Below, one piece after another: positions 5,822 through 40,483 of a stretch of DNA of 45,408 nt. The stretch covers positions 1 through 45,408 of the forward strand of contig CAIPYV010000127.1 in NCBI GenBank assembly GCA_903869365.1, read 5' to 3'. Position 1 is the first letter of the stretch. Every line of letters begins with the position of its first letter. This DNA is from an uncultured Chlorobiaceae bacterium (GTDB lineage Bacteria > Bacteroidota > Chlorobiia > Chlorobiales > Chlorobiaceae). Under the pieces are notes generated by a model. The model saw nothing but the letters and a program-made list of their open reading frames with translations, was not told the DNA's origin and did no database searches. Position numbers and translations under genes: made by a program.

Positions 5822-7072
5822 ATGGACGTTTACTCTGATAATGCAATTGTACTTTCAGATTTTTTTTCGGTACAATCATCAATACCTCTACCACAGGATG
5901 ATTCACTGAAACTGTTAGCGTTAGGTGTAACAAAATCTATCGCCGTTAAATCAGGGATCTCTTCAGAGACAGAAGTTAACAAAATTTTTAAAAAAGTAAA
6001 TTCTGCGTTTAAGCTTTTTGGTGCCACAAGTAAAAGTATTAAACATAGAAGTATGGTTTTCGGGCCAAGTGACTATAGTAATATTTTGGCAGCTAACCTT
6101 GTTGAAAATAATCAATTTGTTAATTTTGATATAAATTTTTCATTGTATGATGATTTAATTCACAGACATACTAATCCCTCTGGTGCCGATCTGAATAAGC
6201 GAATACTAATGATTTGTGAAAAATCTATTGAATTAGTTGAGTCTCTTTATCAAGGAGAAACAAGACCTCCTGATGATATTATTCATGTCACATCCACTGG
6301 TTATATCGATCCAAATCCTATAGATACGCTGGCAAATAATCGTAAATGGTATGATACGATAATTTCGAACTGTTATCACCGTGGTTGTAACGCTTCATTG
6401 CAGGCAATCAGAATGGGACATGATTTTTTGAAATCATCGATGTATAATGACTTTGAGAAAAATAAATCAAGAATTGATATTGTTCATACGGAAGTGAATA
6501 GCGCTCATATGGATATTGGTAAATACGACCCAATGAATGTAATATTTCTTTCTGAGTTCAGTGATGGATTTATTCGTTACTCCGTGCGTCCTCAAAGCTC
6601 AATTATACATAATGGCTTGAACGGGTTAAAAATATTATCTTTCAGTCAGCAATTAATTCCCAATACAATTGATTGCTCGAAAGTCAGTACAGCTTCCCCT
6701 GTTTTTTTACTCGAGGTTAATACACTGAGCTACATTTATTCTATAAAGAAGCATTTCAAGAATTTTGTTGTTAATCTATGCCGCAAGGTGGGTATTGATT
6801 ATGATAAAGAGAAAAGTAAGCTTGTCTTTGCAATTCAGCCATCTGGTGCTGAGTATATAAAAAAAATAGGTAAAATGTTACATTTATCAGATGAACAATT
6901 ATATTTCAGTAAAAATGTCATGTATGAATACGGTGATATGACATCTGCCGGTTTGCCATACATCTACAGAGATATACTTGACTCTGATGATGTTCCAAGA
7001 GGAACGAAGGTTTTGGGCATAGGATATGCACAAGGCATAATTCTTGGGGGTATTGTTTTTGAAAAAGTATAA
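5822..7072 (+). CDS. Type III polyketide synthase/KAS III-like condensing enzyme with altered catalytic triad
   Basis: 416-residue thiolase-fold protein resembling chalcone synthase-type enzymes. Landmarks in order are HVTSTGY (about 155-161), the nucleophile region HRGCNAS with C189, a central DGFIRY segment, FAIQPSG (336-342), YGDMTSAG (about 370-377) and a C-terminal GIGYAQG loop. Active family members have Cys-His-Asn; here the His position is Q339 (codon CAG) and the Asn position is D372 (codon GAT), while the Cys is kept. Either the chemistry differs (for example thioester hydrolysis or acyl transfer) or it is a non-canonical partner. The gene is markedly more AT-rich than its neighbours and next to a transposase remnant, suggesting transfer. 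It is followed by an acetyltransferase and then by the lipid cluster, so it may supply or modify its product. The start is the first ATG of the frame. Confidence 0.7.
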   Translation: MDVYSDNAIVLSDFFSVQSSIPLPQDDSLKLLALGVTKSIAVKSGISSETEVNKIFKKVNSAFKLFGATSKSIKHRSMVFGPSDYSNILAANLVENNQFVNFDINFSLYDDLIHRHTNPSGADLNKRILMICEKSIELVESLYQGETRPPDDIIHVTSTGYIDPNPIDTLANNRKWYDTIISNCYHRGCNASLQAIRMGHDFLKSSMYNDFEKNKSRIDIVHTEVNSAHMDIGKYDPMNVIFLSEFSDGFIRYSVRPQSSIIHNGLNGLKILSFSQQLIPNTIDCSKVSTASPVFLLEVNTLSYIYSIKKHFKNFVVNLCRKVGIDYDKEKSKLVFAIQPSGAEYIKKIGKMLHLSDEQLYFSKNVMYEYGDMTSAGLPYIYRDILDSDDVPRGTKVLGIGYAQGIILGGIVFEKV

Positions 7073-7152
7073 TTTTTTTATAGCTAAGGGTTTAATTTTC
7101 TGGAACTTGCACAAAACTGACAAAAAATTCATTTTATAAATAAAAATCTATA

Positions 7153-7785
7153 ATGCCCATAGAAAAGCAAACATCTTTGATCAATCTTACTCCACTCAAT
7201 TGGTTTAATATTCTGACTGCATGGAGTGTAGCTAAAAAGATTTTCAAAAAAGAAGCAATGGATATTCTGATTTGTTATTCCGGATCACTTCTACCGCGTT
7301 GGCTTTGGCCTAAAATAAATCGAGATGCAATCAGTGAGCTCAATTATTTCATTGCTATGAAGGATAATCAGCCAGTTGGTATTACGGGCTTATACACGAC
7401 ACATAATCAACCTGAAGAAGTTTGGCTTGCTTGGTTTGGTCTGAATGAAAAATTACGTGGCCGTGGTTTAGGTAAAGAACTTATGGTAGCAACAATAGAT
7501 ATGGCTCGAAAACATGGATATCAATCTTTGAGATTATGGACGACTGCCAATGAAGAGCCATTTATTGTTGCTAATTATTTATATCAAAAACTTGGTTTTA
7601 TAGCTCAAGAAACCGATCTAAAATCTTATGGCTTTCCGGTCCTTATATATAGTTTAGGACTCAGTGGAATAACTCCACCACTCTATAAAGCTGATATGAC
7701 CACAACAATCGGAGGAACTGATAGTAATACGAAATCGCATAACTCTATTTTCCGAATACTATTTCGTTTATATTGTAAACAATAA
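7153..7785 (+). CDS. GNAT-family N-acetyltransferase
   Basis: 210-residue protein with a GCN5-related acetyltransferase domain at about 60-165. The acetyl-CoA motif A is visible as LRGRGLGKEL (consensus Q/R-x-x-G-x-G/A), preceded by the beta4 strand (WLAWFGL) and followed by YLYQKLGF, the usual motif B ending. The roughly 60-residue N-terminal extension and about 35-residue polar tail are not recognised. Base composition is AT-rich like the preceding type III PKS-like gene, 80 bp upstream, and the two probably form one transcript and one acquired unit. The substrate is unknown; N- or O-acylation of a cluster product is speculative. Confidence 0.75.
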   Translation: MPIEKQTSLINLTPLNWFNILTAWSVAKKIFKKEAMDILICYSGSLLPRWLWPKINRDAISELNYFIAMKDNQPVGITGLYTTHNQPEEVWLAWFGLNEKLRGRGLGKELMVATIDMARKHGYQSLRLWTTANEEPFIVANYLYQKLGFIAQETDLKSYGFPVLIYSLGLSGITPPLYKADMTTTIGGTDSNTKSHNSIFRILFRLYCKQ

Positions 7786-8093
7786 CTTTTCTATCTTATA
7801 ACTACGTTGAGCAATTCGTCATCATCGAGACAGTGCAGAGTGTCTTACCATGGAACGAGCGGAATCCAGCAAGGTGATGTGGCGACCGGTGCCGATCAAG
7901 AGGTTATAAGCACAATAGTCAAGGAACTTTGGTTTAAAGAATTTTAATAGTTCGTTAAGTCTATATTATATATATATTGCGGTGGTAGTCACAGGAAATG
8001 ATGTCATGGTACTGACATTTTAAACGGCATCCTTTGACACTTGCTGATAACAGTAAAAATAAGGCATTTTAACCAGTATAACGATCAACAGCT
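7786..8093. other. Intergenic region with a possible degraded coding fragment
   Basis: This 308-bp gap is heterogeneous. About 7800-7965 has higher GC and, on the minus strand, an open frame of about 49 codons without a start (includes KFLDYCAYNLLIG and HITLLDSARSMV), with a further open stretch in another frame (CLDDDELLNVV). It looks like a frameshifted gene remnant of unrecognised family. About 7960-7980 is a TATATATA tract, a plausible promoter region for the lipid cluster. Confidence 0.3.
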
Positions 8094-8468
8094 ATGTCAG
8101 GAGTGCAGGATATCGGGGTGGATATCGTTGACGTTGATCGTATCAGGGTATCGTATGAGCGGTATGGTGATAGGTTTCTGTTCAAAATCCTTACGGAAGA
8201 AGAAATTGCCAGTTGCAGAAAAAAAGGTGATATGATTCAAAGCGTTGCAGCAAGGTTTGCAGCTAAAGAAGCTCTTTCTAAAGCACTGGGGTGCGGTATC
8301 AGCAAAAAATTCAGTTGGCATAGCGTTGAAATACTCAACGCTTTGAATGGAAAACCCTATGTCAGAGTAGTCGATAATTCAAGCACTCTGAAAAATGCAT
8401 CTATCAAAATTTCACTCACGCATGACAAACGGTATGCGGCTTCGGTAGCAATGATTTCATTTCCTTAG
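8094..8468 (+). CDS. acpS: Holo-[acyl-carrier-protein] synthase, cluster-dedicated
   Basis: AcpS-type phosphopantetheinyl transferase of 124 residues, the normal family length. It would move 4'-phosphopantetheine from CoA to the serine of an acyl carrier protein. The two metal-binding family motifs are present: IGVDIVDVDRI with D10, and RFAAKEALSKALG with E59. It is the first gene of a co-directional run that includes its probable substrate, the ACP at 9722. A green sulfur bacterium is expected to carry a housekeeping acpS elsewhere, so this copy is likely specific to the cluster. Confidence 0.9.
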   Translation: MSGVQDIGVDIVDVDRIRVSYERYGDRFLFKILTEEEIASCRKKGDMIQSVAARFAAKEALSKALGCGISKKFSWHSVEILNALNGKPYVRVVDNSSTLKNASIKISLTHDKRYAASVAMISFP

Positions 8469-8534
8469 TGCCTGGGTCACAAGGAGTTTCAGTTTTTCAA
8501 GATTATTTGTAAATTTTACTAAGCCTTACAGTAC

Positions 8535-8978
8535 ATGCGGTGGTTATTGATTGATAAAATTCTGGAAATGGAGGCGGGAAAAAGAGCTGTTGGTGTCAAG
8601 TGTTTCTCGCGTTCCGAGTTATTTTTTATGGATCACTTTCCTGAATATCCCATTGTTCCAGGTGTGTTGCAGATTGAAATGATCGCTCAACTCGCCGGCA
8701 AGTGCATTATGGCCACCTCCCCACTTTTTCTTCCCGTACTTACTTCAGTAAAGAGCGCAAAGTTTAGAAAAGCGATTGAGCCTGGCGATAAAGCTTTTGT
8801 TTATACTGAGGTAGCAACTCGTCAATCATTTGCCACGGCAGTCGGCCGGATTGAAGTTGATGGAATTCATATCTCTTCGGCAGAGGTGATGTTTGGTTAT
8901 ATACCTATTCCTGAGAAAATGCGTTTCCATGCTGTAGGCAATTCTGTTTCAGGAATCACAACCACTGAAGGAATATGA
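8535..8978 (+). CDS. FabZ-like 3-hydroxyacyl-ACP dehydratase
   Basis: 147-residue hotdog-fold protein. It begins with the family's R-x-LLIDK-type opening and has the FabZ catalytic block HFPEYPIVPGVLQIEMIAQ, which carries the expected His (H34) and Glu (E48). It should remove water from 3-hydroxyacyl-ACP to give trans-2-enoyl-ACP. The C-terminal 20 residues are not part of the core fold. The stop overlaps the start of the next gene by 4 bp, indicating translational coupling. Similar stand-alone FabZ-like dehydratases occur in aryl-polyene and related type II synthase clusters. Substrate chain length is unknown. Confidence 0.85.
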   Translation: MRWLLIDKILEMEAGKRAVGVKCFSRSELFFMDHFPEYPIVPGVLQIEMIAQLAGKCIMATSPLFLPVLTSVKSAKFRKAIEPGDKAFVYTEVATRQSFATAVGRIEVDGIHISSAEVMFGYIPIPEKMRFHAVGNSVSGITTTEGI

Positions 8979-9721
8979 GCAAAATTCTATGGAGTTCTAC
9001 GCTTGTTCCAGGCACTGATGTCATAGCAAAACCTTATACCTCAGAGTATTACGGGGAATCACTAAGGATTCCAATGACAAAATCTCTTGCTTTAGAAGAG
9101 AGTAAAGCACCGCTTCCTGACCGGAAGGTTTATCGCTCAATGAGCAGGGCTGGCGTTCTCCTGTCGCTTGTTTGTCTTGATGGTCAGTTGGTCATAAAGC
9201 CTTTTCTTGATACATCTCCCTTTTGTGTCGGAATATATGCAGCTCTTGAAAATGGGCCTGTAGATCTCAAATCCACGCATGAAATGATTGATGTTTCGCA
9301 GGAGGACTTTGCGGAACAATACAAAAAGCTTCGTAATCCTAAAATGTTTCTTATGCAGTTGCCCAATCTGGCTGCAGCACAGATGGGAATATTTCTTGGC
9401 ATTCTGGGACCGCTCAATGTCTACAACAGCTCTTCTTACGGCAGCATGCATGCCCTTGAGCAGGCTGAAATGGATCTTCATGAGGGCAGGGTTGATGCTG
9501 CTCTCGTTTGCAGCGCATTCAGTTTTGAAAATCCAATGATTCTTGAGCGCATAAGTCGGCAACCGTTACAAGACCGAGTCCTTTGTGAGGGTGCTGCTGC
9601 GCTTTTGTTGACTGCTGACGGCACATACTCTGACTGGAAGAATTTTGACTATAATGCTACGGAGTCATATTACGGCATCAGTCACCAGATCATCACTCAA
9701 ACACAAAATAAGGGGGAATAA
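8975..9721 (+). CDS. Ketosynthase-like protein lacking the active-site Cys (chain-length-factor-like)
   Basis: 248-residue protein resembling only the N-terminal half of a KAS I/II ketosynthase. Where an active enzyme has the nucleophilic Cys (A-C-A-S/A-G), this protein reads YNSSSYGSMHALEQA around residues 150-164, with serines and no Cys. The second half, which carries the two catalytic His, is missing. It is therefore probably a non-catalytic partner of the full ketosynthase encoded two genes later, comparable in role to the chain-length factors or N-terminal KS-like proteins of type II PKS and aryl-polyene clusters. It starts within the previous gene's stop (ATGA overlap) and ends directly before the ACP gene. 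Confidence 0.7.
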   Translation: MSKILWSSTLVPGTDVIAKPYTSEYYGESLRIPMTKSLALEESKAPLPDRKVYRSMSRAGVLLSLVCLDGQLVIKPFLDTSPFCVGIYAALENGPVDLKSTHEMIDVSQEDFAEQYKKLRNPKMFLMQLPNLAAAQMGIFLGILGPLNVYNSSSYGSMHALEQAEMDLHEGRVDAALVCSAFSFENPMILERISRQPLQDRVLCEGAAALLLTADGTYSDWKNFDYNATESYYGISHQIITQTQNKGE

Positions 9722-10018
9722 ATGTTATCGGAAAAAGAGCTGTTCGACAAAATTGAGGAATCAATTCGCGTTGTGCTGAACGCACCAGAAGTTCAAATCA
9801 AGAAGGAAAGTATGTTTAAGGCTGACCTTGATGCTGAGAGCATTGATTTTCTTGATATCAGTTATGAAATTGAGCAGCGAACTGGAATTGCCCTTGATTT
9901 TAACGAGGCAATGCACTATATCACCGAAAAGAAAGGTGCCGATATCACCGATATTTCCGTAGGTGATGTTTTCGATTACATCATACAGGCACGCCAGCAA
10001 AACAAGGAGAATGCATAA
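9722..10018 (+). CDS. Acyl carrier protein
   Basis: 98-residue acidic helical protein with the phosphopantetheine attachment region LDAESIDFLDI. S40 is the predicted attachment serine; the usual Asp before it is Glu here. The final 25 residues extend slightly past a typical ACP. It begins immediately after the stop of the chain-length-factor-like gene and is followed two bases later by the ketosynthase. It is the expected substrate of the AcpS encoded at the head of the cluster and would carry the growing acyl chain. It is distinct from a housekeeping AcpP, which is usually near 78 residues with a DSL motif. Confidence 0.85.
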   Translation: MLSEKELFDKIEESIRVVLNAPEVQIKKESMFKADLDAESIDFLDISYEIEQRTGIALDFNEAMHYITEKKGADITDISVGDVFDYIIQARQQNKENA

Positions 10019-10020
10019 CC

Positions 10021-11256
10021 ATGCCTGATGTCGTTGTTACTGGTTACGGTATCGTTTCCCCCATCGGTTCTTCAATACCTGAATTCGAACAACGCATGTT
10101 TGCCGGGGACTCAGGGATTATCGATATAAGGGGATCTCTTGTAGGAAAAAACTTTCCCGTTCCTTTCGGAGGAGTCGTTGACAATACAACGATTGCATCA
10201 GCAAAGGAGCTCGGAATAAATCCTGCTGCTCACACAAACGGCGGAAGATATTTACTCCACTCTTTACAACAGATTCTTGAATATCTTCCTGCAAATTTGC
10301 CGATTGATGGCATTGTGCAGGCAACCCCTGGAGGCATTTATTTTGATATTGTACTCGATTCGCTTAAGAATTATGCTCCGGACTCCTTGTTTTGGGATGA
10401 GCTCAAGGCTGAATGGATTGTGGAAATTATTAGTGATCAGCTTCATAAAAGAGGCCATGGAATTATCCCGCCCGAAAACCAGATCTGTGTTAATTCAGCA
10501 TGTGCGGCTGGAAGTCAGATAATCGGTCTGGGCTACCACTATCTGAAATCCGGACGGATGAAACGATGTCTTGTAAGCGCTGTTGACGCAGGAGGATGGG
10601 AAAGTCAGTTAATGAATTTTCATCTTCTTCATACACTGACGACCGATGATGTTCCAGCCCATACCGCAAGCAGACCATTTTCTAAAAGCAGATCCGGTTT
10701 TGTTAAAGGTGAAGCGGCTGCGATACTGCTCCTTGAAACAAGAGAGGCGGCTGAAGAACGCAATGCGGAAATACTTGCAGAAGTATGTGGTTATGCCTTC
10801 AACTCGGACTCATATCGCCTGACTGATGGCAGGGACGATAATCTCTGTGTTGTCAAAGCGATGGAGGACGCTGTTCTTGATGCAGGCATCGATAAAAAAG
10901 CGATCGGGTATATCAACGCTCATGGCACATCGACGCTGCTCAATGATCGACTTGAGACACAAGCTATAAAAAAAGTATTTGGTGAAGATGCTTGCCGAAT
11001 TCCAGTAAGTTCATTGAAATCACAGATTGGCCACTCAACAGTTGCGGCTGGCGCGGTTGAAGCTATAGCCTGCATTCTTATGCTAAAGCGGCAAAAAGTT
11101 GCCCCTACAATTAATCTGACCGACCCCGATCCGGAATGTGACCTCGATTATGTAACGGAAGGAAGCAGAGAGGTAACGATGGATTATGTTCTCAGTAACA
11201 GTTTTGGTTTTGGAGGTCAAAACGCATGCCTGGTATTTAAAAAAGAAACAATCTGA
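10021..11256 (+). CDS. Beta-ketoacyl-ACP synthase (KAS I/II type)
   Basis: 411-residue condensing enzyme, the normal FabF length. The full Cys-His-His triad is present: C161 in NSACAAGS, H301 in INAHGTST and H338 in KSQIGHST. The C-terminus carries the conserved SNSFGFGGQNACLVF. It should condense malonyl-ACP with an acyl starter on the neighbouring ACP, probably paired with the Cys-less ketosynthase-like protein upstream. It starts 2 bp after the ACP stop. The sequence is divergent from a housekeeping FabF (for example GGIYFD near residue 105), consistent with specialised chemistry. Confidence 0.9.
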   Translation: MPDVVVTGYGIVSPIGSSIPEFEQRMFAGDSGIIDIRGSLVGKNFPVPFGGVVDNTTIASAKELGINPAAHTNGGRYLLHSLQQILEYLPANLPIDGIVQATPGGIYFDIVLDSLKNYAPDSLFWDELKAEWIVEIISDQLHKRGHGIIPPENQICVNSACAAGSQIIGLGYHYLKSGRMKRCLVSAVDAGGWESQLMNFHLLHTLTTDDVPAHTASRPFSKSRSGFVKGEAAAILLLETREAAEERNAEILAEVCGYAFNSDSYRLTDGRDDNLCVVKAMEDAVLDAGIDKKAIGYINAHGTSTLLNDRLETQAIKKVFGEDACRIPVSSLKSQIGHSTVAAGAVEAIACILMLKRQKVAPTINLTDPDPECDLDYVTEGSREVTMDYVLSNSFGFGGQNACLVFKKETI

Positions 11257-11259
11257 TTG

Positions 11260-12027
11260 ATGGAAAAACGTCTTGCCTTGATTACAGGCGGAACATCAGG
11301 TATTGGTTTTGGCGCTGCAAAAGCATTGGCTGGGAGCTGTGATCTGGCGCTTGGTTATGCTTCCAATCATGAACGGGCTCAGAAAGCAAAAGAAGCATTG
11401 CTTGAACATGAAGGATGCAGAGTCGAGCTGTTTTCACAACATCTTGCAGGCTATGATGATGCTAAAACGCTTTTTGATAATGTTGTTCACTCTTTTGGAA
11501 AACCGCCTGAAATACTGATTAATTCATCAGGAAAGATTAAAGACGGTTTTTTTTTACAGACTGATTTTTCGATTCATCAACAGCTTATTCAGGAACATCT
11601 TATCGTTACGATGGCGATGTGCCAGCTGGCCTTGAAATCAATGTATGGAAAACGGTATGGCAGAATTATCAATCTCAGCTCAATAAGCGGATTCTATGCA
11701 AAACGTGGGCAGGTAAACTATGCCGCAGCGAAAGCAGGGATCATCGGTTTTACGAAAACATTAGCCTTGGAAGTTGCCCACCGCGGTATTACCGTCAATT
11801 CAGTTGCCCCCGGACTGATAAAAACTCCCATGACATCGCATATTGTAAACTATCTGGAAAATGCTTCGGGCAAGGAAATCGGCAGGCACATCCCTGTTGG
11901 TTTTATCGGGGAACCAAGTGATATAGGGCCCCTTATCGCTTTTCTGTGTTCCGATGACGCTCGTTACATCACTGGCACACTCTTAACCGTTGACGGAGGA
12001 AGTTCTTTAGGAGACTGCGGAATATGA
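11260..12027 (+). CDS. 3-oxoacyl-ACP reductase (FabG-like SDR)
   Basis: Short-chain dehydrogenase/reductase of 255 residues. It has the NADP(H)-binding GGTSGIG (near residue 10), an N-S-S-G segment, and the catalytic Ser-Tyr-Lys set: LSSISG followed by NYAAAKAG, then PGLIKTPM. The C-terminal DGGSS is typical of FabG. It should reduce 3-oxoacyl-ACP to 3-hydroxyacyl-ACP, feeding the FabZ-like dehydratase. A TTG lies directly before the ATG chosen here, so the annotated start could be one codon earlier. The 3' end overlaps the next gene by 4 bp. Confidence 0.85.
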   Translation: MEKRLALITGGTSGIGFGAAKALAGSCDLALGYASNHERAQKAKEALLEHEGCRVELFSQHLAGYDDAKTLFDNVVHSFGKPPEILINSSGKIKDGFFLQTDFSIHQQLIQEHLIVTMAMCQLALKSMYGKRYGRIINLSSISGFYAKRGQVNYAAAKAGIIGFTKTLALEVAHRGITVNSVAPGLIKTPMTSHIVNYLENASGKEIGRHIPVGFIGEPSDIGPLIAFLCSDDARYITGTLLTVDGGSSLGDCGI

Positions 12028-12776
12028 ACCATTTGCAGGACAAAACAGCGGTGGTGACCGGCGGAACAAGAGGTATCGGCAGAGCTGTTTCGCTTGCCCT
12101 TGCTGCATGCGGAGCCAATGTTTTCGCTCTTTATGCAAGAAGTCGTAAAAATGCCGAGTCACTGGAAAAAGAAGCTGAATCAAGAGGGTTGCATATTACC
12201 ACAATAAGAGGTGACCTCTCTCATGAAGAGAGTTATAGCCATACGGTGCAACAGCTTCATCAAGCCTGTGATCACATTGATATTCTGGTACACTCTGCAG
12301 CAAGCGGAGTACACCGAAAAGCAATGGAACTTTCTGAAAAACAATTGAAATGGACATTTGAAATCAACTTCTTTGCGGTGCACAAGTTGACCAGAGAGCT
12401 TATTGGAAAAATGGGAAGAGGAGGCAGGATCATCGGGATCACTTCACCCGGGGGTACTCATGTTATTCCCAACTATGCAGCAGTCGGCTCAACAAAAGGT
12501 GCTATGGAGGCTTTGTTTCGTCACTATGCCCGTGAGCTTGCTCCTGAAGGGATTGTGGTGAACCTTGTCTGCCCGGGTCTGGTCATGACTGACGTTGTAA
12601 AGGAGGTGCCGGAGCTTGAAAAACTTTTGAACATAACCCTTGAATATACTCCTTCAGGAATACTGACAACCCCAGCGCAGGTTGCTGAAGTTGTAACATT
12701 CCTTACAACTGATGCCGCGGCCCAGATAGTAGGACAGACTATCGTTATTGATGGAGGCAAAGGATTATTGGCCTAA
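12024..12776 (+). CDS. SDR reductase, FabL (enoyl-ACP reductase III)-like
   Basis: 250-residue SDR. The cofactor motif is GGTRGIG near residue 13. The active-site region reads ITSPGGTHVIPNYAAVGSTKGAMEAL and the C-terminus QTIVIDGGKGLLA. From family knowledge, the GxTKGAxEALxR pattern and the ending GQTIxVDGGxSLL resemble the Bacillus FabL enoyl reductase more than FabG. If right, the cluster has a ketosynthase, ketoreductase, dehydratase and enoyl reductase and could make a saturated chain. It may equally be a second ketoreductase. It overlaps FabG by 4 bp, and the ABC ATPase follows. Confidence 0.65.
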   Translation: MNHLQDKTAVVTGGTRGIGRAVSLALAACGANVFALYARSRKNAESLEKEAESRGLHITTIRGDLSHEESYSHTVQQLHQACDHIDILVHSAASGVHRKAMELSEKQLKWTFEINFFAVHKLTRELIGKMGRGGRIIGITSPGGTHVIPNYAAVGSTKGAMEALFRHYARELAPEGIVVNLVCPGLVMTDVVKEVPELEKLLNITLEYTPSGILTTPAQVAEVVTFLTTDAAAQIVGQTIVIDGGKGLLA

Positions 12777-12810
12777 CCGCCAGCAATGGAAAGAGAAGAA
12801 TGCACTGCAA

Positions 12811-13518
12811 ATGAAGAACACCGTTATAGCAAAGCTGGTTGATGTATCAAAATATTATGGCAATGGGGCTGCTCGTGTAACCGCGCTGGACAGAGTCAAT
12901 CTCTCTCTCTGTCGCGGCGATATCGTTGTGCTTGTTGGTCTTTCGGGAAGCGGTAAATCAACTCTTCTTCATCTTCTCGGCTGCATTGATAAACAGGATA
13001 AGGGAAACATCATTATCGATGGAATTGATACATCATCGATGAGCCTTGAACAATTGGCTCCTCTAAGACTCAATAAAATCGGCTTTGTGTTCCAATCGTT
13101 TAATTTAATTCCAGTGCTTACGGCTTACGAAAATGTTGAGCTTCCGCTTCTGTTTAAAGGTTTAGAAAAAAAGGCTATCAGTGAACGAGTTCATGAAGTA
13201 CTGGATGAAGTTGGACTTCAGGACAGGAAAAAACACTACCCTAGAGAGATGTCTGGAGGACAGCAACAGAGAGTAGCTATTGCACGAGCTTTAGCTGGCC
13301 AGCCATCGATTGTCCTGGCCGATGAACCTACAGCGAATCTTGACAGTAAAACCGGGGAAGGAATTCTTGATCTTCTCTTGAATCTGAACCAGCAGAAAAA
13401 AAGCACACTGGTTATCTCTTCACATGATTCGGTCGTGCTTGATCGGATTAAAAGTGTCGTTCATATTCTTGACGGAAGAGTATCAGTAGATACTGAACAT
13501 TCACCCGTTCAGACATGA
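12811..13518 (+). CDS. ABC transporter ATP-binding protein (LolD/MacB-type)
   Basis: ATPase of about 235 residues in the LolD/MacB family of mechanotransmission-type ABC systems. Walker A is GLSGSGKST, the Q-loop GFVFQSFNL, the signature MSGGQQQR, Walker B IVLADEPT and the H-loop SSHD. The frame is open back to 12748, overlapping the upstream reductase by 29 bp; I prefer ATG 12811 because a GGAAAGAGAAG stretch lies upstream and alignment to the family starts there. An intermediate ATG at 12751 is possible. The partner permease is 118 bp downstream. In this context it would power release of a lipid or lipoprotein from the inner membrane. Confidence 0.9.
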   Translation: MKNTVIAKLVDVSKYYGNGAARVTALDRVNLSLCRGDIVVLVGLSGSGKSTLLHLLGCIDKQDKGNIIIDGIDTSSMSLEQLAPLRLNKIGFVFQSFNLIPVLTAYENVELPLLFKGLEKKAISERVHEVLDEVGLQDRKKHYPREMSGGQQQRVAIARALAGQPSIVLADEPTANLDSKTGEGILDLLLNLNQQKKSTLVISSHDSVVLDRIKSVVHILDGRVSVDTEHSPVQT

Positions 13519-13636
13519 GGATGGTTTCATAGACTAAAAAAATGTTGTCGTTCACTTCAAGCTACAGGAAGGTTTGTGTGATACAGCTGAACTGAGAAAA
13601 AGAGAAAACAAACCAGATCCTGATTTTTTATAAGGT

Positions 13637-14926
13637 ATGACCATTATAAAACTTATTAATATTGCGCTTAGAAACCTTTTTCGCAATAGCCGAAGAACTT
13701 TTATTACTGTTCTGGTGTCGGCATCAGGTTTTGCAGCGCTTGCGATTATTGCCGGATATATGGAATTTACATTTTTCGGTCTCCGGGAAATGACAATTTG
13801 TAAAGGTTTTACTGCCAGCGGAGGTACAGGTCACCTCCAGGTTTTTATGCAGGATGCTTTACAGAAGGAAGAACGTTACCCTCTCGAATTTGGTATTGAA
13901 GTCAACGATAAGCTCCAGTCCAATATTGAATCGACAGGAAATGTATCCTTCACAATACCGCGGGTAGAGTTTAACGGACTTATTTCCAACGGAGAGAAAT
14001 CAATTTCATTTTTGGGAATGGGTGTTGACCCTGTAAAAGAATCAAAACTTATTGAGTACTGGTATGCGCTTGACAATATGTCTTCAAAGGCAGTAAGGGC
14101 CGATTCATCATTCACACAACTTAAAAACACAGCTCCCAACGGCGTTCTGCTTGGCGAAGAAATGGCAAAGGCTCTGAATGTTAAAAAAGGTTCTGGTCTG
14201 ATGCTGATGTCCACAACTGTTGATGGTGCTGTCAATGTTGTCGATGTTACGGTTGCTGGTATTGTTCAAAACACCATAAAGTCAATAAACCGCTACTATC
14301 TCGTCACCAATATCAAAACAGCTCAAAGCCTGATGCAGACTGAAAAAGTCTCAAAAATAGTTGTCATACTCAACAAAACAGAGAACACAGATGCGGTCAG
14401 ACCTCTTTTGTCAAAAAAGCTCAACGGTTCAAGCGCGAAACCACTTTTTTCAGTTATACCCTGGAATAATCTTGCTGAATACTACAATTCCGTCATCGAC
14501 GCGTATCGTATCATCTTCAGTTTTTCCGGTATTATCATTGTTGTCATTGTTTTTTTAAGCTGCACCAATACAATGCTGATGGCAACGATGGAAAGGGTAA
14601 AAGAGATTGGGACACTCAAGGCAATTGGAATTTCCAACATCTGGATCATTCTTATGTTTCTTTTTGAAGGGTTTTTTATAGGAGTGTTAAGCGTAGTGGC
14701 TGGTATTGCTCTTAAATATATTTTTTCATGGATTATCAATAATTCAGGATTTATGATGCCACCACCACCAGGTATGACATCATCATACGAACTCAATATA
14801 TTTTCTGCTGTTGAATTTCTTCCCTGGATTTCGCTGCTTGTCATGGTATCAACCACATTTTCAGGATTACTGACGTTTGTTAAAATCAGAAAAATCTCAA
14901 TTGTAAATTCTTTAACCCATGTGTAA
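13637..14926 (+). CDS. FtsX/LolE-type ABC permease
   Basis: 429-residue membrane protein with the four-helix MacB/LolC/E layout: one transmembrane segment near residues 20-45, a large periplasmic domain of about 230 residues, and three C-terminal helices (about 288-315, 332-365 and 390-415). The cytoplasmic coupling region MERVKEIGTLKAIGIS between helices 2 and 3 is the FtsX-family signature. It would work with the ATPase upstream and with the LolA-like periplasmic protein, whose gene overlaps its 3' end by 8 bp. Only one permease is encoded, so the transporter is probably a homodimer rather than a LolC/LolE pair. The cargo is inferred, not seen. Confidence 0.85.
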   Translation: MTIIKLINIALRNLFRNSRRTFITVLVSASGFAALAIIAGYMEFTFFGLREMTICKGFTASGGTGHLQVFMQDALQKEERYPLEFGIEVNDKLQSNIESTGNVSFTIPRVEFNGLISNGEKSISFLGMGVDPVKESKLIEYWYALDNMSSKAVRADSSFTQLKNTAPNGVLLGEEMAKALNVKKGSGLMLMSTTVDGAVNVVDVTVAGIVQNTIKSINRYYLVTNIKTAQSLMQTEKVSKIVVILNKTENTDAVRPLLSKKLNGSSAKPLFSVIPWNNLAEYYNSVIDAYRIIFSFSGIIIVVIVFLSCTNTMLMATMERVKEIGTLKAIGISNIWIILMFLFEGFFIGVLSVVAGIALKYIFSWIINNSGFMMPPPPGMTSSYELNIFSAVEFLPWISLLVMVSTTFSGLLTFVKIRKISIVNSLTHV

Positions 14927-15734
14927 CTTTTTTTTTCGGATCATTCTTTCTGTTTTCCTGCTGTTGTCGCTTGTTGCAAGAGAGGATAGTCGAGCAGCAG
15001 GTACAGCATCCATCACCATAGGAGATAAGTCAGACACCATACATGCAGCTGAAATCCTGAAAAAATCAGATGAGGTAAGATCTCCCTGGCCAAATTTCAT
15101 CATGGTTGCTCATCTTTCCTTTGAAAAATTCAACGAAGAAAAACAAGAGGTGTTCAGAGTATTTAACAGAGATTATTTCAAAAGTCTGGTAAGTTATATA
15201 GAGCCCGTCAAACAACGAGGAAACATTCTCTTGATGGTCGATGATAATCTTTGGTATTATGTCAATAATACCCAGTACCCCATGAGGATTACCCCCATCC
15301 AGAAGCTTTCTGGTGGAGCGTCATACGGAGATGTTGCAAGACTGAACTGGTCAAGGGATTATAATGCGACTATGGTTGGGGAGCAGACTTTGACAGTAAA
15401 AGGGCAGACCTACGAAACCTGGGTTCTGAAGCTCATTGCCCGTTCAAATAGTGCAACATACCATATTATTGATCTTTATATAGAAAAAGGAACATCTTAC
15501 CCAAGAAAAGCTGAGGTTTATCTGCAATCAGGCAAAAAAATGAAAACATTATATTTTACTGCATATCAACCAATGGCTGGCAAGATGATGAACACGAAGA
15601 TTGAGTTTATCGATCATCTGAGTTCAGATAATGTGACAACCCTCACCTTCAGCAAGGTGCAAGTCAAAAAATCACCTGATCGTTTTTTTCTTAAATCGAA
15701 CCTCCCATCCCTTAACAGTGAGGTTATTTATTAG
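14919..15734 (+). CDS. LolA-like outer-membrane lipoprotein-sorting protein
   Basis: 271-residue exported protein. A hydrophobic signal sequence covers about residues 5-27 (SVFLLLSLVA and then REDSRAAG). The mature part shows the beta-rich pattern of the LolA-like (PF17131) family, including MVDDNLWYYV, the loop GGASYGDVARLNW, and TYHIIDLYIEKG with YPRKAEVY. Family members are periplasmic shuttles that accept hydrophobic cargo in a half-barrel. Its gene overlaps the permease by 8 bp and precedes an outer-membrane barrel, so a path from inner membrane through periplasm to outer membrane is encoded in order. A second ATG start is not obvious. Confidence 0.8.
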   Translation: MCNFFFRIILSVFLLLSLVAREDSRAAGTASITIGDKSDTIHAAEILKKSDEVRSPWPNFIMVAHLSFEKFNEEKQEVFRVFNRDYFKSLVSYIEPVKQRGNILLMVDDNLWYYVNNTQYPMRITPIQKLSGGASYGDVARLNWSRDYNATMVGEQTLTVKGQTYETWVLKLIARSNSATYHIIDLYIEKGTSYPRKAEVYLQSGKKMKTLYFTAYQPMAGKMMNTKIEFIDHLSSDNVTTLTFSKVQVKKSPDRFFLKSNLPSLNSEVIY

Positions 15735-15758
15735 CTCATAACTGAAACCAACACAGCC

Positions 15759-17120
15759 ATGTTATCTTACTTGCTTGATGCTCTTCAATACAACCATGGT
15801 CGATGGCTGCGGCCTGGAAAAGCCACCCTATCTTTTGCTGTTTTCTTTTTGCTTACAGTCGGATACTCTTTGCAACTTCATGCTGAAGATGAATCCAGTG
15901 TAAGCAGTTTTCCTCTTTCCGGTTCGTTGCGTCTGACTGGTGAAGGAGAAAAAAGCACACTGAGCCACTCCCTGCTCAACCCCTCCAACATACTCATGCG
16001 TCCAGAAACGCGTGCCGAGGGCTTTCTTCTCGGCAACACCACCTTTAAGGGATTGGGTGGTGCAGTTGAATCAGAGATACGTCTCGGATACGAATATCTT
16101 GATGGAAAAGACTCATCATTTTTGGAAAAAAAATTATCCGATGTCAATATTAATCAGTTGTATTACCAGGCAACGAGCGGTCCTTTTTTGTTTCAAGTTG
16201 GCAGAAAAAAAGTTCGCTGGGGGGTAGGCTACTCATACAGCCCTACCGATCTGATTACTCAGTTAAAAAATCCTGAGGACCCTGAAGACCGCCTGAACAA
16301 AATCAAAGGCGCCGATCTTTTCCAGCTTACCTATATCAAAAATAACAGCGAGCTTGATCTGGTTTATTTTCCCATGATTAACTGGAGCTCAAGCAATGCT
16401 TTCATAAACAGCAGCCGATTCGGCTTGAGATGGTATAACCTGATAGATCCATTTGATCTTGCATTTGTTGGAAAAGCTGAACAGCAAGGGCAATGGGCTT
16501 CTGGCCTTAACACATCAGTGGCTATTGGAAAAGCGATCGAACTCCATGCTGAATACCTCTACACGTCTCAGAGTAATACAAACTACCCTAATCTATATCT
16601 CGACCCATCTGAAACTGCTTACCCTTTTTTTTTACAACAGAAAAAAAAGGGGGCCAACGACATTTTACTTGGAGGTCAGGTCACGTTTTACGGAGACTGG
16701 AATCTGACTGCTGAATATCTTTATCATGGTTCGGGATATTCATCAGAAGAATTTAATGCGTATATCAATCGTCTCAAAAGTCTGAATATGCAATTTGGAA
16801 CTTCTTATAACCAACTCCCAATAGTTGCAGGGCTTCAGGAATCCGCACTGAATTTTTCAACACCTCTGCGTCAACATTATCTCTTCGGTCGGTTATATCA
16901 TCCCAACGTGACACATTCAATATCCCTTGAAATGTACAGTTTCTTAAGTCTTGCAGACAGAAGCGGTCTGTTTGTTATTAAGCCAAAATATACCGGGTCG
17001 AAGAGTTATGAAGTCTATTACTGTATGGAAAAGTTCTGGGGGAAAAATGTTACGGAATTCGGTCTTATTCCGGATAGATTGAAGGGTATTGTCGGTATTT
17101 CATTATTTCTGGACAAATAA
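15759..17120 (+). CDS. Outer-membrane beta-barrel protein of the lipid-export cluster
   Basis: 453-residue predicted outer-membrane protein. A long N-terminal leader (hydrophobic at about 24-41, ending LHAED near 44) is followed by alternating strands rich in aromatic pairs, such as RLGYEYLDG, FQVGRKKVRWG and AEYLYHGSGYSS. The repeated YxxSPTDLITQ and GADLFQLTY motifs resemble barrels annotated DUF1302-like or beta-barrel porins that accompany LolA-like/ABC operons. It is the last gene of the cluster, 24 bp after the LolA-like gene, and would receive or insert the exported product at the outer membrane. The exact family is uncertain. Confidence 0.7.
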   Translation: MLSYLLDALQYNHGRWLRPGKATLSFAVFFLLTVGYSLQLHAEDESSVSSFPLSGSLRLTGEGEKSTLSHSLLNPSNILMRPETRAEGFLLGNTTFKGLGGAVESEIRLGYEYLDGKDSSFLEKKLSDVNINQLYYQATSGPFLFQVGRKKVRWGVGYSYSPTDLITQLKNPEDPEDRLNKIKGADLFQLTYIKNNSELDLVYFPMINWSSSNAFINSSRFGLRWYNLIDPFDLAFVGKAEQQGQWASGLNTSVAIGKAIELHAEYLYTSQSNTNYPNLYLDPSETAYPFFLQQKKKGANDILLGGQVTFYGDWNLTAEYLYHGSGYSSEEFNAYINRLKSLNMQFGTSYNQLPIVAGLQESALNFSTPLRQHYLFGRLYHPNVTHSISLEMYSFLSLADRSGLFVIKPKYTGSKSYEVYYCMEKFWGKNVTEFGLIPDRLKGIVGISLFLDK

Positions 17121-17185: not shown

Positions 17186-18457
17186 TTAAAATGCGCTGTA
17201 GAGAACAAGAGTTGTAAGATTTTTGCCAACATCACTCGTATGGGTATCACCCGAATAGAAACTCTGGTTCAATTGAAACTGGATATTTCTGGCCGGCATA
17301 TAGGCCAGACCGAGAGTCACAGCATTATCAGAATCTGGTAACTCTGATCCTGTATTTGCTTTTCTGTATCCAACACCGAGGGCAAGCTTATCTGGAATAA
17401 CTCCAAGCATACCAGAGACCGTCCATACTTTTTTATCCCCAATGGTACTCGGATTGTAGGTATTGGGATCGAGAGGATCAGCAGTTTTTCCTGCTTTGCC
17501 ATAGGTTGCATAGAGGCCTAACGGAAGGTTGCCTATTTTTCCCTGACCTTGCATATCTACAGCCCACGCATTTGCATATTCATCCCTTGTCGTGAATGTA
17601 GACGTTGCATTGTCCACTATTTTGACTTTTGATTCTCCGGTCCATATCTGGACACCTGCAGCAAGATCCCACTCGCCTGCTTTCGGCGTAACGACTGCTC
17701 TGATGTAATTCAGCGGCTGTTTTATTCCAAAATTACCCTGGTTCATAACATAGGGAGTATAATTTATGTAACCATACTTGTGGTAAACAACTAAAGCGAC
17801 GCCTGAAGCTTCATGAGCTGTGCCCAAATATTGCTGTGCAGAAGTCTCTTCTGCATTTTCAAATGCACGAGCAAACTCAACTGCACCGGTATTCAACAAC
17901 TCAAAACCATACGCAGGACCTTGTGCAGATGTTGTAAATGGAATAGCACTCAGCGTGAAGTCATCGAGTTTTGTCGAAATCGGCATTTTAAAGTCAGACA
18001 AAATTTTTCCTGAAGTCACATCATCAGGAACAACTGAAAGTCCTACCTGAAAACCAACATTCTTTGAAACCCTTCCGCCTATAGTAAGAAAAGCCTCATC
18101 CGGAAACGAGATATTACCATAATTCGTTGGCCCGGCATCGACGGTTTTTGCATCGCCATTTGTTTTCTGATAGCGGAGTTTGCTGACAAATGAAGTATTC
18201 AGCGTCGATGGAAGTGAAAGATTATCATCCTCAATTTTGCCCTGTTTTCCAAGTCCTGAATCAATATATCCATTAGCTTTAAAACTACGGCCAAAAGCAT
18301 TCAGGAGGGGAAATTGTTCGAAATGGCATGCAGCACAAGAAAAGCCTGTTTGACGTGCATAGACAGGTGTGGCTGATGCCTCCTGTGGCACTGAAGATAA
18401 AAGAGGAGCCAACGCTCCGATAGAAATTAGAAAAGTTCGCATTTTTTTGACGTGCAT
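17186..18457 (-). CDS. cyc2: Cyc2-type outer-membrane cytochrome-porin (Fe(II) oxidase candidate)
   Basis: 423-residue fusion of a monohaem cytochrome motif and a beta-barrel. The signal peptide ends near ASA (residue 29). The haem motif CAACH (C41-H45) follows 12 residues later, then the family-typical P-LNAFGRSFKANGY. The remaining 370 residues alternate as barrel strands (for example YINYTPYVM, WDLAAGVQIWTG, LALGVGYRKA) and end in YSAF, an aromatic outer-membrane C-terminus. This architecture is that of Cyc2, shown in acidophilic and neutrophilic iron oxidisers to accept electrons from Fe(II) and present in photoferrotrophic Chlorobium. A periplasmic cytochrome gene lies directly upstream on the same strand, a plausible electron acceptor. 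Confidence 0.85.
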   Translation of the reverse strand: MHVKKMRTFLISIGALAPLLSSVPQEASATPVYARQTGFSCAACHFEQFPLLNAFGRSFKANGYIDSGLGKQGKIEDDNLSLPSTLNTSFVSKLRYQKTNGDAKTVDAGPTNYGNISFPDEAFLTIGGRVSKNVGFQVGLSVVPDDVTSGKILSDFKMPISTKLDDFTLSAIPFTTSAQGPAYGFELLNTGAVEFARAFENAEETSAQQYLGTAHEASGVALVVYHKYGYINYTPYVMNQGNFGIKQPLNYIRAVVTPKAGEWDLAAGVQIWTGESKVKIVDNATSTFTTRDEYANAWAVDMQGQGKIGNLPLGLYATYGKAGKTADPLDPNTYNPSTIGDKKVWTVSGMLGVIPDKLALGVGYRKANTGSELPDSDNAVTLGLAYMPARNIQFQLNQSFYSGDTHTSDVGKNLTTLVLYSAF

Positions 18458-18556
18458 AAGAATATTCCGTTTTATGATGAAGAAAATAACAGGGTTAAAT
18501 AAATAGTCACTTTAATTGCAATAAAAAACATGTATAACTCTACAGAGTCGATACGT

Positions 18557-18955
18557 TCAGGATATCATATAAGCAACAATATTTTCTATATCGATATCAC
18601 TGATTGATTCGTTACCGCCTTTGGGCGGCATCTTATTAAAACCCGAAACGGCGTTTTTAACAATCGCTCCCCATCCTTTAACAATGCGTGATGTCCATAA
18701 TTCTTTCTGGCCAGGTTTTGGCGCGCCCAAAATACCATTATCATGACACCCGGAACAGCCTGCTGTTTCGTATTTTTTCTTACCTATCGAAACATTATAC
18801 TTTTTATCAATGATTGTCTTTACATCAATCTCTTGATGACTGAGATGATGATTATTTTCTTGAATTTTATTTGTTTCTTCCGCATTGACTTGCTGATTGC
18901 CGTTAAAAACAATCATAACAAGAATAAATGATATTGTTAAAATTCTTGATCTCAT
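18557..18955 (-). CDS. Periplasmic monohaem cytochrome c (c5/class I type)
   Basis: 132-residue exported cytochrome. A signal peptide (hydrophobic 7-18, ending VNA near 25) is followed by a polar linker rich in H, N and E (26-45). The haem motif is CSGCH (C67, C70, H71) and the likely sixth ligand is M109 in MPPKGG, the small-domain pattern of cytochrome c5-like proteins. The final YMIS helix completes the fold. It precedes cyc2 by 99 bp on the same strand, so the two are probably co-transcribed, and it is the obvious candidate to carry electrons from the Cyc2 haem across the periplasm. AT-rich codon use is noticeable compared with the nif genes. Confidence 0.85.
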   Translation of the reverse strand: MRSRILTISFILVMIVFNGNQQVNAEETNKIQENNHHLSHQEIDVKTIIDKKYNVSIGKKKYETAGCSGCHDNGILGAPKPGQKELWTSRIVKGWGAIVKNAVSGFNKMPPKGGNESISDIDIENIVAYMIS

Positions 18956-19696
18956 AATTTCTCAATATTTATAAATAATTAATATTAATTTGCTGAATTT
19001 ATCCAAAAAACCTGATCGTCAATAAAATAATCTGCCGCTACAGGAATAGTGCTAAACTGCAACACACAAAACATTCCAACACAATTCTGTAATCGGCAGA
19101 ATAATAAAAGTTCAAGCTATCTGAATAAAAATATCAACAATACTCTCATAATTAACATTTGTTTATACACAAGACAGAATACACACAGCAACGTCACTAT
19201 TTATTGCAACCTTGCATGACTTTACCGTGAAATACCAACAGATAACGCATTGAAATATATTCTTCTTAAGAATACATTAAGATTCCTTAAAGGATGGTTA
19301 ACGAAAGATTAAAATTCCCTTAAAAAATCATTTCTGTTCAATAACGCTTATCCGCTGTATCTCTCGTCTTGAAATTTCAGCATTTTCAGCTGTTCTGGTT
19401 GAGCAGTGTATCTTAACGTATGGTGCTCCTCAAGTTTGCCGATGACATGGGTTGCCATGGTTGAAAGAAGGAAAGCCCCCTGACTGCTGGAAATCCTGAC
19501 AATTGCTTATAATGATCTGTAAGTTTTTGTCTGTACTGAATGACTGCGGTATAGGATTTTACTTCCTCAGTTCCATAAATTACTTGAAAAGGCTTTTTGT
19601 TTGTTGAGAACTGAATTTCGTCTCTTACTGTTTTATGTCATAAGGGAAACAAATTGATAAGATGTGTTATTGTTGTAAAAAAGCAAAGGATTTATC
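18956..19696. other. Long intergenic region upstream of cyc2 operon and hybrid kinase
   Basis: This 741-bp divergent region contains a phased TTAA repeat at 19266-19323. At 19413-19637 the minus strand has an uninterrupted frame of 74 codons with no good start (includes KPFQVIYGTEEVKSYTAVIQ and LTDHYKQLS), which reads like coding sequence but is unrecognised and may be a gene remnant. The rest is AT-rich and holds the promoters. No RNA gene was recognised. Confidence 0.4.
19266..19323. promoter_or_regulatory. Six TTAA cores at 10-11 bp spacing (Pho-box-like operator array)
   Basis: TTAA occurs at 19266, 19277, 19287, 19298, 19309 and 19320, steps of 11, 10, 11, 11 and 11 bp. Cores are embedded in CTTAAG, ATTAAG, CTTAAA, GTTAAC, ATTAAA and CTTAAA. 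Helically phased direct repeats of about 11 bp are characteristic of OmpR/PhoB-family binding sites; the cyanobacterial Pho box also has a TTAA core repeated with 11-bp period. It is about 310 bp from the cytochrome start and 370 bp from the kinase start, so the controlled gene is uncertain. Confidence 0.55.
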
Positions 19697-22252
19697 ATGA
19701 AGCTTTTTGAAAAAAACATTCAGAAATTTTATCAAAAAGTTTTAGACATCGTAGAGCAGGCTGAACCAAATCTGCCGATTATAGGATTGTTCGCTACTGT
19801 AGGATATCCGCTCTTTTATATTGTATGGAAAACGTTATTGCCTCAACCCTATGAAAATCTTTTACTCCGTTGTATTGAGGCCGTTATAAGTCTACCATGG
19901 CTCTTGCATCCATTTCTCGCCAAAAAAATTAAAGCACTTTTTCCGTTATACTTTGTTTTTTCTGTACCATTACTTCTTCCTTTCTTTTTCTATTTTATGC
20001 TGCTTAAAAACGAGTGGTCATTGACCTGGGCAATGTCATCAATGGGAGGCTTGCTCTTACTCATTCTTTTAATTTATGACTGGCTGCTTATCTGCGTCAT
20101 CTCTGCTGTTGGCTTTGCCATAGCTTATGGAGCGGTACTCTACCTCGATGGGCATGTTTCATATACCTATTTTCAATGGGAGTACATTCCAACCTATTGT
20201 TTTGCACTGATTGGAGGTATTATTGTCAGTCATAGAAAACAGAGTGCTCAAAAATCAAAGATATCTCTTTTGAAAAGCCTGAGCGGCAGCATCGCCCATG
20301 AAATGAGAAATCCGCTCAACGCCATTTCCAACGCTATAGCTTCGGTACATGCCAAGCTCCCCGAAAAACCCAGTAGCGATATTGGAGCTGAAACGTATTC
20401 GATCACCAATTCCGGCCTGATCAGCATTCATCATGTCATTGAAGAGAGTTCAAACATTCTGAACAGGGCCAACAAAATCATTGATTCAATCCTGACCAGC
20501 ATGCAGGGAGGCGAAGTCGCTACCAAGGGCTTTATCCGTCTAAGAGCCTCCGATGCAATTAATGCAGCAGTGAACAGTTTTCCCTTCGACGATCCAGCAG
20601 ACAAAACATTGGTGAGCATCAATACTATCCGGAATTTTGATTTTTTCGGTGATCGAGATCTGTTTTACTACGTACTTTTTAATCTTTTGAAAAACTCTCT
20701 TTACTACAAAACTGATCCCGGCTTCTGTATAGCAATAACATCAGACTCAATACCGTCGGCTAACATTATCCGGATCAGGGATACGGGGCCCGGTGTATCG
20801 AAAAACAAAAGAGAGCTGATATTTGAACACTTCTATACATCGAATAAGAAAGAGGGAAACGGCCTTGGTTTGTCATTCTGCAGAAGAGTTATCGATTCAT
20901 TCGGCGGAAGCATTGTCTGTAACTCGAAGGAGGGAGAGTGGACGGAGTTCACCATTACCTTGCCGATATATGAGTCAAAAAAAACACAGGAAATAAAGAA
21001 TAAAATCCTCAGAAAAAAAAGGATCCTTATCACCGATGATCAAATCAGCAATCGACTGATTCTTGCAAAATACTTATCGGAAATGGCCTGCCAGTATGAT
21101 CAGGCTGAAAACGGCAAGCAGGCTATGGCATTACTTTCAGAAAATCGGTATGACCTTATTTTTATGGATTTTGAAATGCCCTTACTGAATGGAGATAATG
21201 TTGTAAAATTTATTCGCTCAGCTCAGGATATTGATCCGTCCCTGGCTTTTCATTATCTACAGGTACCGATCATCGGTATAACCTCACTGCCGGAAGCTGA
21301 TGCGGCAGTCAGAGGGAAAAAATGCGGCATGAATGAAGTGCTTTCAAAACCAATAAGAAGAACTGATGTCAAAAATACCATTGAAAAGTACTTTTTTTCG
21401 GAATTAGCATTCATCAACAACGATCAGAATGAGATTATTGATGGCAAACGCATTCTCCTTGTTGACGATAATGAGACAAGCAGAAAATTCATGAGTATGG
21501 TGCTTAAACATTATGGGTGCAATATTGAACAGGCGATCAATGGAAGAGAAGCTATCAATGCTCTTGAAAAAGATGATTTTGATCTCATACTGATGGATGT
21601 GGAAATGCCGGTTATGAACGGCATTGAAGCAGCAAAAGCAATACGAAGCGGAAAAGATTTCACTCGATTCTGTGCATTCAACACTATTCCAATCATAGGC
21701 CTGACTGGCAATACTGATGAACAAAGCTCGCTTGAACTACAAGAAGCCGGCATGAACTATCATCTCGGAAAACCTGTATTCAAAGATGAACTTGTATCAG
21801 CCATTGCCGTGATGCTGAAAAACCATACCTACCGAAACAAAACTATGAACAGCCAAAATCCCTATGTACCGGAACAAAATGAAGCAAAGTTCTGGGAAAG
21901 TATTGCGCATGAAAAAGTTTTAGACCTTTCAACCATCAACAGCCTCAAAGAGATAGGCGGTGAGGAATTGATTGCAAGTCTTTTCGAGACGTTCATCACC
22001 GATACTGACAAACTGATTGATGAACTTACCGATGCTGATGTCAGAAAAGATATGAAACAATATGACCAGATACTGCACACCCTTAAAGGCTCCACAGGAA
22101 GTATCGGCGCCAATAAAATGTATGTGCTTTCCAGATACCTTAACGCGGTTTCACACCAAGGCAAATGGCCTGAAAACAAGTTATGGATACAGATCTTTAA
22201 AGCTGTGTATGCAGAAACTGTGCAAGAACTGCAAAACCTTGCTCGACAGTAA
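19697..22252 (+). CDS. CqsS-like hybrid sensor histidine kinase
   Basis: 851-residue membrane kinase. The first 180 residues form about six transmembrane helices and contain EPNLPIIGL, a GYPLFYIVW segment and LPQPYENLLLR, matching the sensor module of CqsS/LqsS kinases, which detect alpha-hydroxyketone autoinducers in Vibrio and Legionella. The HisKA box AHEMRNPLNAI has H201, followed by ATPase motifs LLKNSLYY and GNGLGLSFC. Two receiver domains follow (D491 and D634) and a C-terminal Hpt domain with H794 in LHTLKGSTGSIGA. So it is a complete phosphorelay in one chain. No CqsA-like synthase or partner regulator lies in the window. The next gene, an amidotransferase, is 13 bp downstream. Confidence 0.85.
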   Translation: MKLFEKNIQKFYQKVLDIVEQAEPNLPIIGLFATVGYPLFYIVWKTLLPQPYENLLLRCIEAVISLPWLLHPFLAKKIKALFPLYFVFSVPLLLPFFFYFMLLKNEWSLTWAMSSMGGLLLLILLIYDWLLICVISAVGFAIAYGAVLYLDGHVSYTYFQWEYIPTYCFALIGGIIVSHRKQSAQKSKISLLKSLSGSIAHEMRNPLNAISNAIASVHAKLPEKPSSDIGAETYSITNSGLISIHHVIEESSNILNRANKIIDSILTSMQGGEVATKGFIRLRASDAINAAVNSFPFDDPADKTLVSINTIRNFDFFGDRDLFYYVLFNLLKNSLYYKTDPGFCIAITSDSIPSANIIRIRDTGPGVSKNKRELIFEHFYTSNKKEGNGLGLSFCRRVIDSFGGSIVCNSKEGEWTEFTITLPIYESKKTQEIKNKILRKKRILITDDQISNRLILAKYLSEMACQYDQAENGKQAMALLSENRYDLIFMDFEMPLLNGDNVVKFIRSAQDIDPSLAFHYLQVPIIGITSLPEADAAVRGKKCGMNEVLSKPIRRTDVKNTIEKYFFSELAFINNDQNEIIDGKRILLVDDNETSRKFMSMVLKHYGCNIEQAINGREAINALEKDDFDLILMDVEMPVMNGIEAAKAIRSGKDFTRFCAFNTIPIIGLTGNTDEQSSLELQEAGMNYHLGKPVFKDELVSAIAVMLKNHTYRNKTMNSQNPYVPEQNEAKFWESIAHEKVLDLSTINSLKEIGGEELIASLFETFITDTDKLIDELTDADVRKDMKQYDQILHTLKGSTGSIGANKMYVLSRYLNAVSHQGKWPENKLWIQIFKAVYAETVQELQNLARQ

Positions 22253-33673: not shown

Positions 33674-33886
33674 ATGAGACAAGTTCAGAAAAGCGGATAT
33701 ACTTACATGGAAAATTTGAAGCAAGAGGCTATCAGGGTAATATCCGAATTGCCGGAGACAGCAAACATTGATGACATCATGTATGAACTCTATGTTGTTG
33801 ATAAAATCAAGAAAGGTAAAGATGCGATTGACCATGGGGAGTCAATTTCAACCGAAGAGTTAAAAAAAGAGATGCAAGCGTGGTAA
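33674..33886 (+). CDS. Antitoxin of a RelE/ParE-type toxin-antitoxin pair
   Basis: Small acidic protein of 70 residues (or 59 if the in-frame ATG at 33707 is used, which gives MENLKQEAIRVISELPE and fits the family start better). The body LPETANIDDIMYELYVVDKIKKGKDAI followed by a Ser/Glu-rich tail is typical of the short antitoxins found before RelE/ParE toxins in cyanobacteria and Chlorobi. Its stop overlaps the toxin start (33880) by 7 bp, so the two are translationally coupled. It would bind and neutralise the toxin and probably autoregulate the operon. Confidence 0.75.
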   Translation: MRQVQKSGYTYMENLKQEAIRVISELPETANIDDIMYELYVVDKIKKGKDAIDHGESISTEELKKEMQAW

Positions 33887-35757: not shown

Positions 35758-36594
<837 letters not shown>

Positions 36595-36614
36595 AAAAAA
36601 CGGAGTACACACAC

Positions 36615-36971: not shown

Positions 36972-36972
36972 C

Positions 36973-37350: not shown

Positions 37351-37387
37351 GCATATCAATTTTCAAGGTGTAAACGGAGAGAGTTAC

Positions 37388-39034: not shown

Positions 39035-39060
39035 TGAAGGAAAACGGAGACTATTGAATT

Positions 39061-40443: not shown

Positions 40444-40483
40444 AAGTAAGGAGAGTACAACAATTATTAACGGGGTTGAAGCT

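Follow-up and report, generated by a model that had tools for sequence, protein, structure and literature searches.

The window, the whole 45,408-nucleotide stretch of DNA analysed here, is part of the 2.93 Mb genome (136 contigs) of a green sulfur bacterium. On its reverse strand it carries an intact gene for a Cyc2-like protein and, in the same orientation and separated from it by 99 nt on the upstream side, an intact gene for a small cytochrome c. The features of this pair are as follows:

17186–18457, reverse strand: cyc2-like gene for a predicted 423-aa fused monohaem cytochrome-porin, with a signal-peptide-like start, ATPVYARQT...CAACH...PLL, a barrel-like remainder of about 350 aa and a C-terminal YSAF
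18323–18337, reverse strand: CAACH haem-binding codons (residues 41–45 of the Cyc2-like protein), located by pattern match
18458–18556, reverse strand: 99-nt intergenic stretch of the pair, probably transcribed together with both genes
18557–18955, reverse strand: gene for the 132-aa partner, a monohaem cytochrome c of the periplasm with a CSGCH motif, whose relatives include Chlorobaculum c-556/c-555 and cytochrome c5
18956–19400, reverse strand: sequence ahead of both genes, in part conserved in the sister species and probably containing the promoter

The Cyc2-like protein begins with MHVKKMRTFLISIGALAPLLSSVPQEASA, continues with ATPVYARQTGFSCAACHFEQFPLLNAFGRSFK and ends in VLYSAF. Its start resembles a signal peptide, just past which the preliminary description had placed the CAACH motif of a fused monohaem-porin, and the reading frame, the motif and the coordinates all hold on the reverse strand. 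In the published Cyc2 consensus, AXPXFAR[Q/K][T/Y] precedes CXXCH by a short distance, and PXL follows the haem motif at four residues (PMC8406198). Near the N terminus of the window protein we find ATPVYARQT-GFS-CAACH-FEQFPLL, in which all fixed positions of the first motif are matched except for a Y in place of F, and in which PLL follows the haem motif after FEQF. P50 and L52 of this PXL are invariant among 18 aligned sequences. Across the 22 members of the Chlorobium clade described below, the first motif is exact in 11, has Y for F in seven (two of which also have V for T) and has S for A in four. As marks of Cyc2 membership we considered a single haem motif, a length of at least 365 aa, a signal peptide and an outer-membrane β-barrel of about 16 strands. 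The window protein has one CXXCH in its 423 residues, and it matched no Pfam or NCBIfam model.

The remainder of the protein is probably an outer-membrane barrel. Its C-terminal residue is Phe, which is usual in outer-membrane proteins. The preliminary description had spoken of a full barrel, and a barrel is indirectly supported by porin and barrel families that recur in other members of the clade: Porin_4 in five of 18 (best 5.9e-5), YadA_anchor in 10 of 18 (best 0.0014) and OMP_b-brl in two of 18, whereas the window protein itself matches none of them and its amphipathic-strand and strand-periodicity counts lie only weakly above those of shuffled sequences. A PDB profile search with the Cyc2-like family gave chance matches only, and AlphaFold2 run on two sequences returned a model with a pLDDT of 26, which we did not use.

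Full-length homologues free of stop codons are present in 22 of 65 Chlorobium genomes at 49–100% identity, and 94 columns are invariant among the 18 aligned sequences, which together show that this is no chance open reading frame. This number of carriers is near the 40% of Chlorobium mOTUs reported to have cyc2 homologues (PMC8125076). We built a maximum-likelihood tree of 67 cytochrome-porins, with three proteobacterial Cyc2-like proteins from a plasmid search serving as a distant comparison. The window protein falls in a single branch made up of the 22 full-length Chlorobium sequences (support 100/100), apart from the FARK-type paralogues. Within this branch it sits in a sub-branch of six genomes (support 96/100) that is approximately 47–58% identical to the rest of the clade. 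Also among the 22 is the protein of genome G025, which we take to be C. luteolum DSM 273. The Cyc2 proteins of C. luteolum and C. phaeovibrioides are close relatives, and those of photoferrotrophic Chlorobi cluster with the Cyc2 of known neutrophilic iron oxidisers (PMC12442345). The window protein is a putative member of Cyc2 Cluster 1, placed there indirectly, through its Chlorobium relatives and not through the biochemically tested Cyc2 proteins of Mariprofundus, Acidithiobacillus and Leptospirillum. The proteobacterial proteins from the plasmid search matched over a short N-terminal stretch only, viral contigs contained no match to the Cyc2-like protein, and a single-sequence search of contigs returned the sister MAG JABDHL as the sole match.

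The partner gene encodes a protein with one CSGCH motif that scores 41.4 bits against Pfam Cytochrome_CBB3 (cut-off 27). Among proteins of solved structure it is most closely related to c-556 (8hn3, E 4e-22) and c-555 (4j20, E 4e-16), with cytochrome c5 more distant. No terminator-like site on the reverse strand was found in the gap between the two genes, and we infer that their co-transcription is likely. A same-strand monohaem cytochrome of 112–157 aa lies upstream of the Cyc2-like gene in 21 of the 22 loci, which, together with the Pfam score, bears out the adjoining periplasmic monohaem cytochrome of the preliminary description. The exception is the homologue in G051 (L078 6611–7894, G051:C22), which has no adjacent cytochrome c. 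In the 17 loci beyond the sister genome, no other neighbour from the window recurs, if generic matches of low identity are set aside. Since the cytochrome stays adjacent while the other neighbours differ, the pair behaves as a conserved two-gene cassette. The gap of 99 nt and the G051 locus could be taken to mean that the two genes are chance neighbours and that the barrel protein works alone, but with the cytochrome as the sole conserved neighbour in otherwise different surroundings this is extremely improbable.

The surroundings of the pair in the window have features of their own. Upstream of the pair lies a divergent gene (19697–22252, forward strand) that is not conserved beside Cyc2 in other genomes; its product is a hybrid histidine kinase containing two receiver domains and one Hpt domain. 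Convergent with the pair is an operon-like run (5822–17120, forward strand) that first encodes chalcone-synthase-like, GNAT, ACPS, FabA, ketoacyl synthase and two SDR proteins, and in its later part a LolD-like ATPase, a LolC/E-like permease, a LolA-like protein and a 453-aa protein that fits no known family; as a whole it resembles a locus for lipid or pigment synthesis and outer-membrane export. Farther along the window are a nitrogenase cluster, with NifH followed by three proteins of nitrogenase component-1 type (35770–43194, forward strand), and near it the ParE-type toxin gene of a toxin-antitoxin pair (33880–34341, forward strand).

The window genome encodes the FMO antenna protein, which identifies the cell as phototrophic, and of the two marks of a photoferrotrophic green sulfur bacterium that we considered, light-dependent growth on Fe(II) and a phototrophic apparatus plus a Cyc2 gene, the second is present here as FMO and the Cyc2-like gene. 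The same genome contains dsrA (515.9 bits, over the cut-off) and soxB (844 bits), and sulfur compounds are likely donors in this organism as well. Given these sulfur-oxidation genes, the pair is not needed to account for phototrophic growth, and iron would be an optional donor, one among several. For the same reason we rejected the idea that the genome belongs to an iron specialist. Among the Chlorobium genomes, dsrA is over the cut-off in 11 of 22 carriers of the clade versus 32 of 43 non-carriers (Fisher p = 0.06 overall, 0.02 at a completeness of at least 90% and 0.26 at 95%). Carriers therefore show at most a weak tendency to lack dsrA, and the window genome has both.

The occurrence of dsrA in half of the carriers bears on another reading, in which the protein belongs to the broader Cyc2-like superfamily of cytochrome-porins but takes no part in electron uptake and instead serves, for example, sulfur chemistry, metal handling or the discharge of excess electrons. 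Chlorobiaceae do contain further cytochrome-porins of the FARK type, which are full-length kin of the window protein (hhalign probability 98.6%) and are found also in genomes that lack the window clade. The ARQ and PXL motifs, however, belong to the window clade and not to these paralogues, and PXL was not found in any FARK paralogue of the Chlorobiaceae. Moreover, the window clade is linked to a cytochrome of the reaction-centre type, whereas no small monohaem cytochrome adjoins the two paralogues of the window genome in the stretches read, and a sulfur role is not favoured since carriers tend to lack dsrA. We consider a function outside electron uptake very unlikely. The two paralogues in question (G000:C76, at L057 3943–5193, and G000:C112, at L058 3501–4940) are cytochrome-porins with FARKY...CxTCH and no PXL. 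They fall in two Chlorobiaceae-wide clades and, with the window protein, make three Cyc2-like proteins in the genome.

In our judgement, the pair is quite probably the form that the Cyc2 iron-oxidation module takes in Chlorobium, with electrons running from Fe(II) through the Cyc2 haem and the periplasmic cytochrome to PscC/P840. In this scheme the Cyc2-like protein would be an outer-membrane porin whose N terminus bears one c-type haem, and at the cell surface this haem would accept a single electron from Fe(II) in solution. The electron would then pass to the adjacent 132-aa cytochrome, presumably by direct transfer between the two proteins. This cytochrome, or a related soluble carrier of the c-555 type, would in turn reduce PscC (cytochrome cz) and through it photo-oxidised P840, and light would thereby drive Fe(II)-dependent CO2 fixation. 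The cytochromes c-556 and c-554/555 have been proposed to donate electrons to PscC in the reaction centre of Chlorobaculum (PMC11108878), and the kinship of the partner to such reaction-centre-feeding carriers makes an electron path inward plausible. Fe(II) oxidation is the activity that has been tested for the Cyc2 family (PMC8406198), and according to PMC9342728 culture tests of what Cyc2 does in Chlorobium were still to come; judged by homology, Fe(II) is the likely substrate of the window protein. The preliminary description had named the locus a photoferrotrophy module. What stands of this is the Cyc2 layout and the partner cytochrome, for which the motif, the phylogeny within Chlorobium and the conserved pairing are the evidence, and the phototrophic genome with FMO, whereas the role of Fe(II) is held as likely and dsrA and soxB imply other donors.

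The nature of the donor is also where a further reading enters. The cytochrome-porin and its partner might form a general inward conduit that in this organism naturally draws on reduced humic or dissolved organic matter (hydroquinones), while Fe(II) would serve as a shuttle at most. The nearest relative of the window genome is Trout Bog GSB-B (GSB_B_Oct13, JABDHL, L006/G037). According to PMC12285243, both Trout Bog Chlorobium populations have three Cyc2 homologues each, one of them highly transcribed, and light-linked oxidation by Trout Bog Chlorobium is attributed to dissolved organic matter. We likewise found three Cyc2-type matches in the window genome and three in G037, in each case one member of the 22-sequence clade and two FARK-type paralogues. 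PMC12285243 nevertheless allows that Fe(II) could still be the direct substrate, and the tested activity of the family speaks against an organic donor, so that we regard this reading as unlikely. Within the six-genome sub-branch, the partner is of its own type (41–46% identical outside the closest pair), and the change from F to Y in the motif is common to the window protein and its sister. The narrower proposal that this sub-branch is a Cyc2 variant of humic lakes whose adaptation is to reduced humic matter instead of Fe(II) seems to us quite doubtful.

The pair is an ordinary example of a known system and recurs in roughly one third of the related genomes that we examined. It adds a freshwater Chlorobium with a likely electron route from the outside to photosynthesis alongside sulfur oxidation. 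In addition, the retention of Cyc2 and a small cytochrome as a cassette amid differing surroundings names a likely periplasmic carrier.

The closest known systems are the Cyc2 proteins of C. ferrooxidans, C. phaeoferrooxidans KB01, strain N1, Ca. C. masyuteum and C. luteolum, which belong to the same genus-level group as the window protein and resemble it in the motif region. The likeness to the Cyc2 of photoferrotrophic Chlorobium and C. luteolum lies in the full-length clade shared with the G025 sequence and in the small cytochrome c that is adjacent nearly everywhere. The window protein differs from them in its six-genome sub-branch, at approximately 47–58% identity to the rest, and in the Y for F in its motif, and the window genome, unlike that of Ca. 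C. masyuteum, has dsrA and soxB. In Trout Bog GSB-B (JABDHL, L006/G037), the Cyc2-like protein is 94% and the partner 84% identical to those of the window, the downstream neighbours are the same and there are again three homologues per genome, although it is a separate species-level genome for which dissolved organic matter has been put forward in print as the donor. The FARK-type cytochrome-porins of the Chlorobiaceae are also fused monohaem cytochrome-porins with full-length profile similarity to the window protein, but they form a separate clade with an ARKY-type motif and no PXL. As marks of Cyc2 Cluster 1 we considered branching with the Cyc2 of Mariprofundus, Gallionellaceae and Chlorobium, and Fe(II) oxidase activity with a redox potential near 0.2 V. 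With Cyc2PV-1 of Mariprofundus ferrooxydans, a tested Fe(II) oxidase, and other Cluster 1 members, the window protein shares a single CXXCH, a signal-peptide-like start and a probable fused porin, and its likeness in AXPXFAR[Q/K][T/Y], apart from the Y for F, and in PXL is judged from the description in PMC8406198. The two systems differ in the next carrier, which for Cyc2PV-1 is proposed to be the dihaem periplasmic cytochrome Cyc1, while the partner in the window is of the c-555/c5 type.
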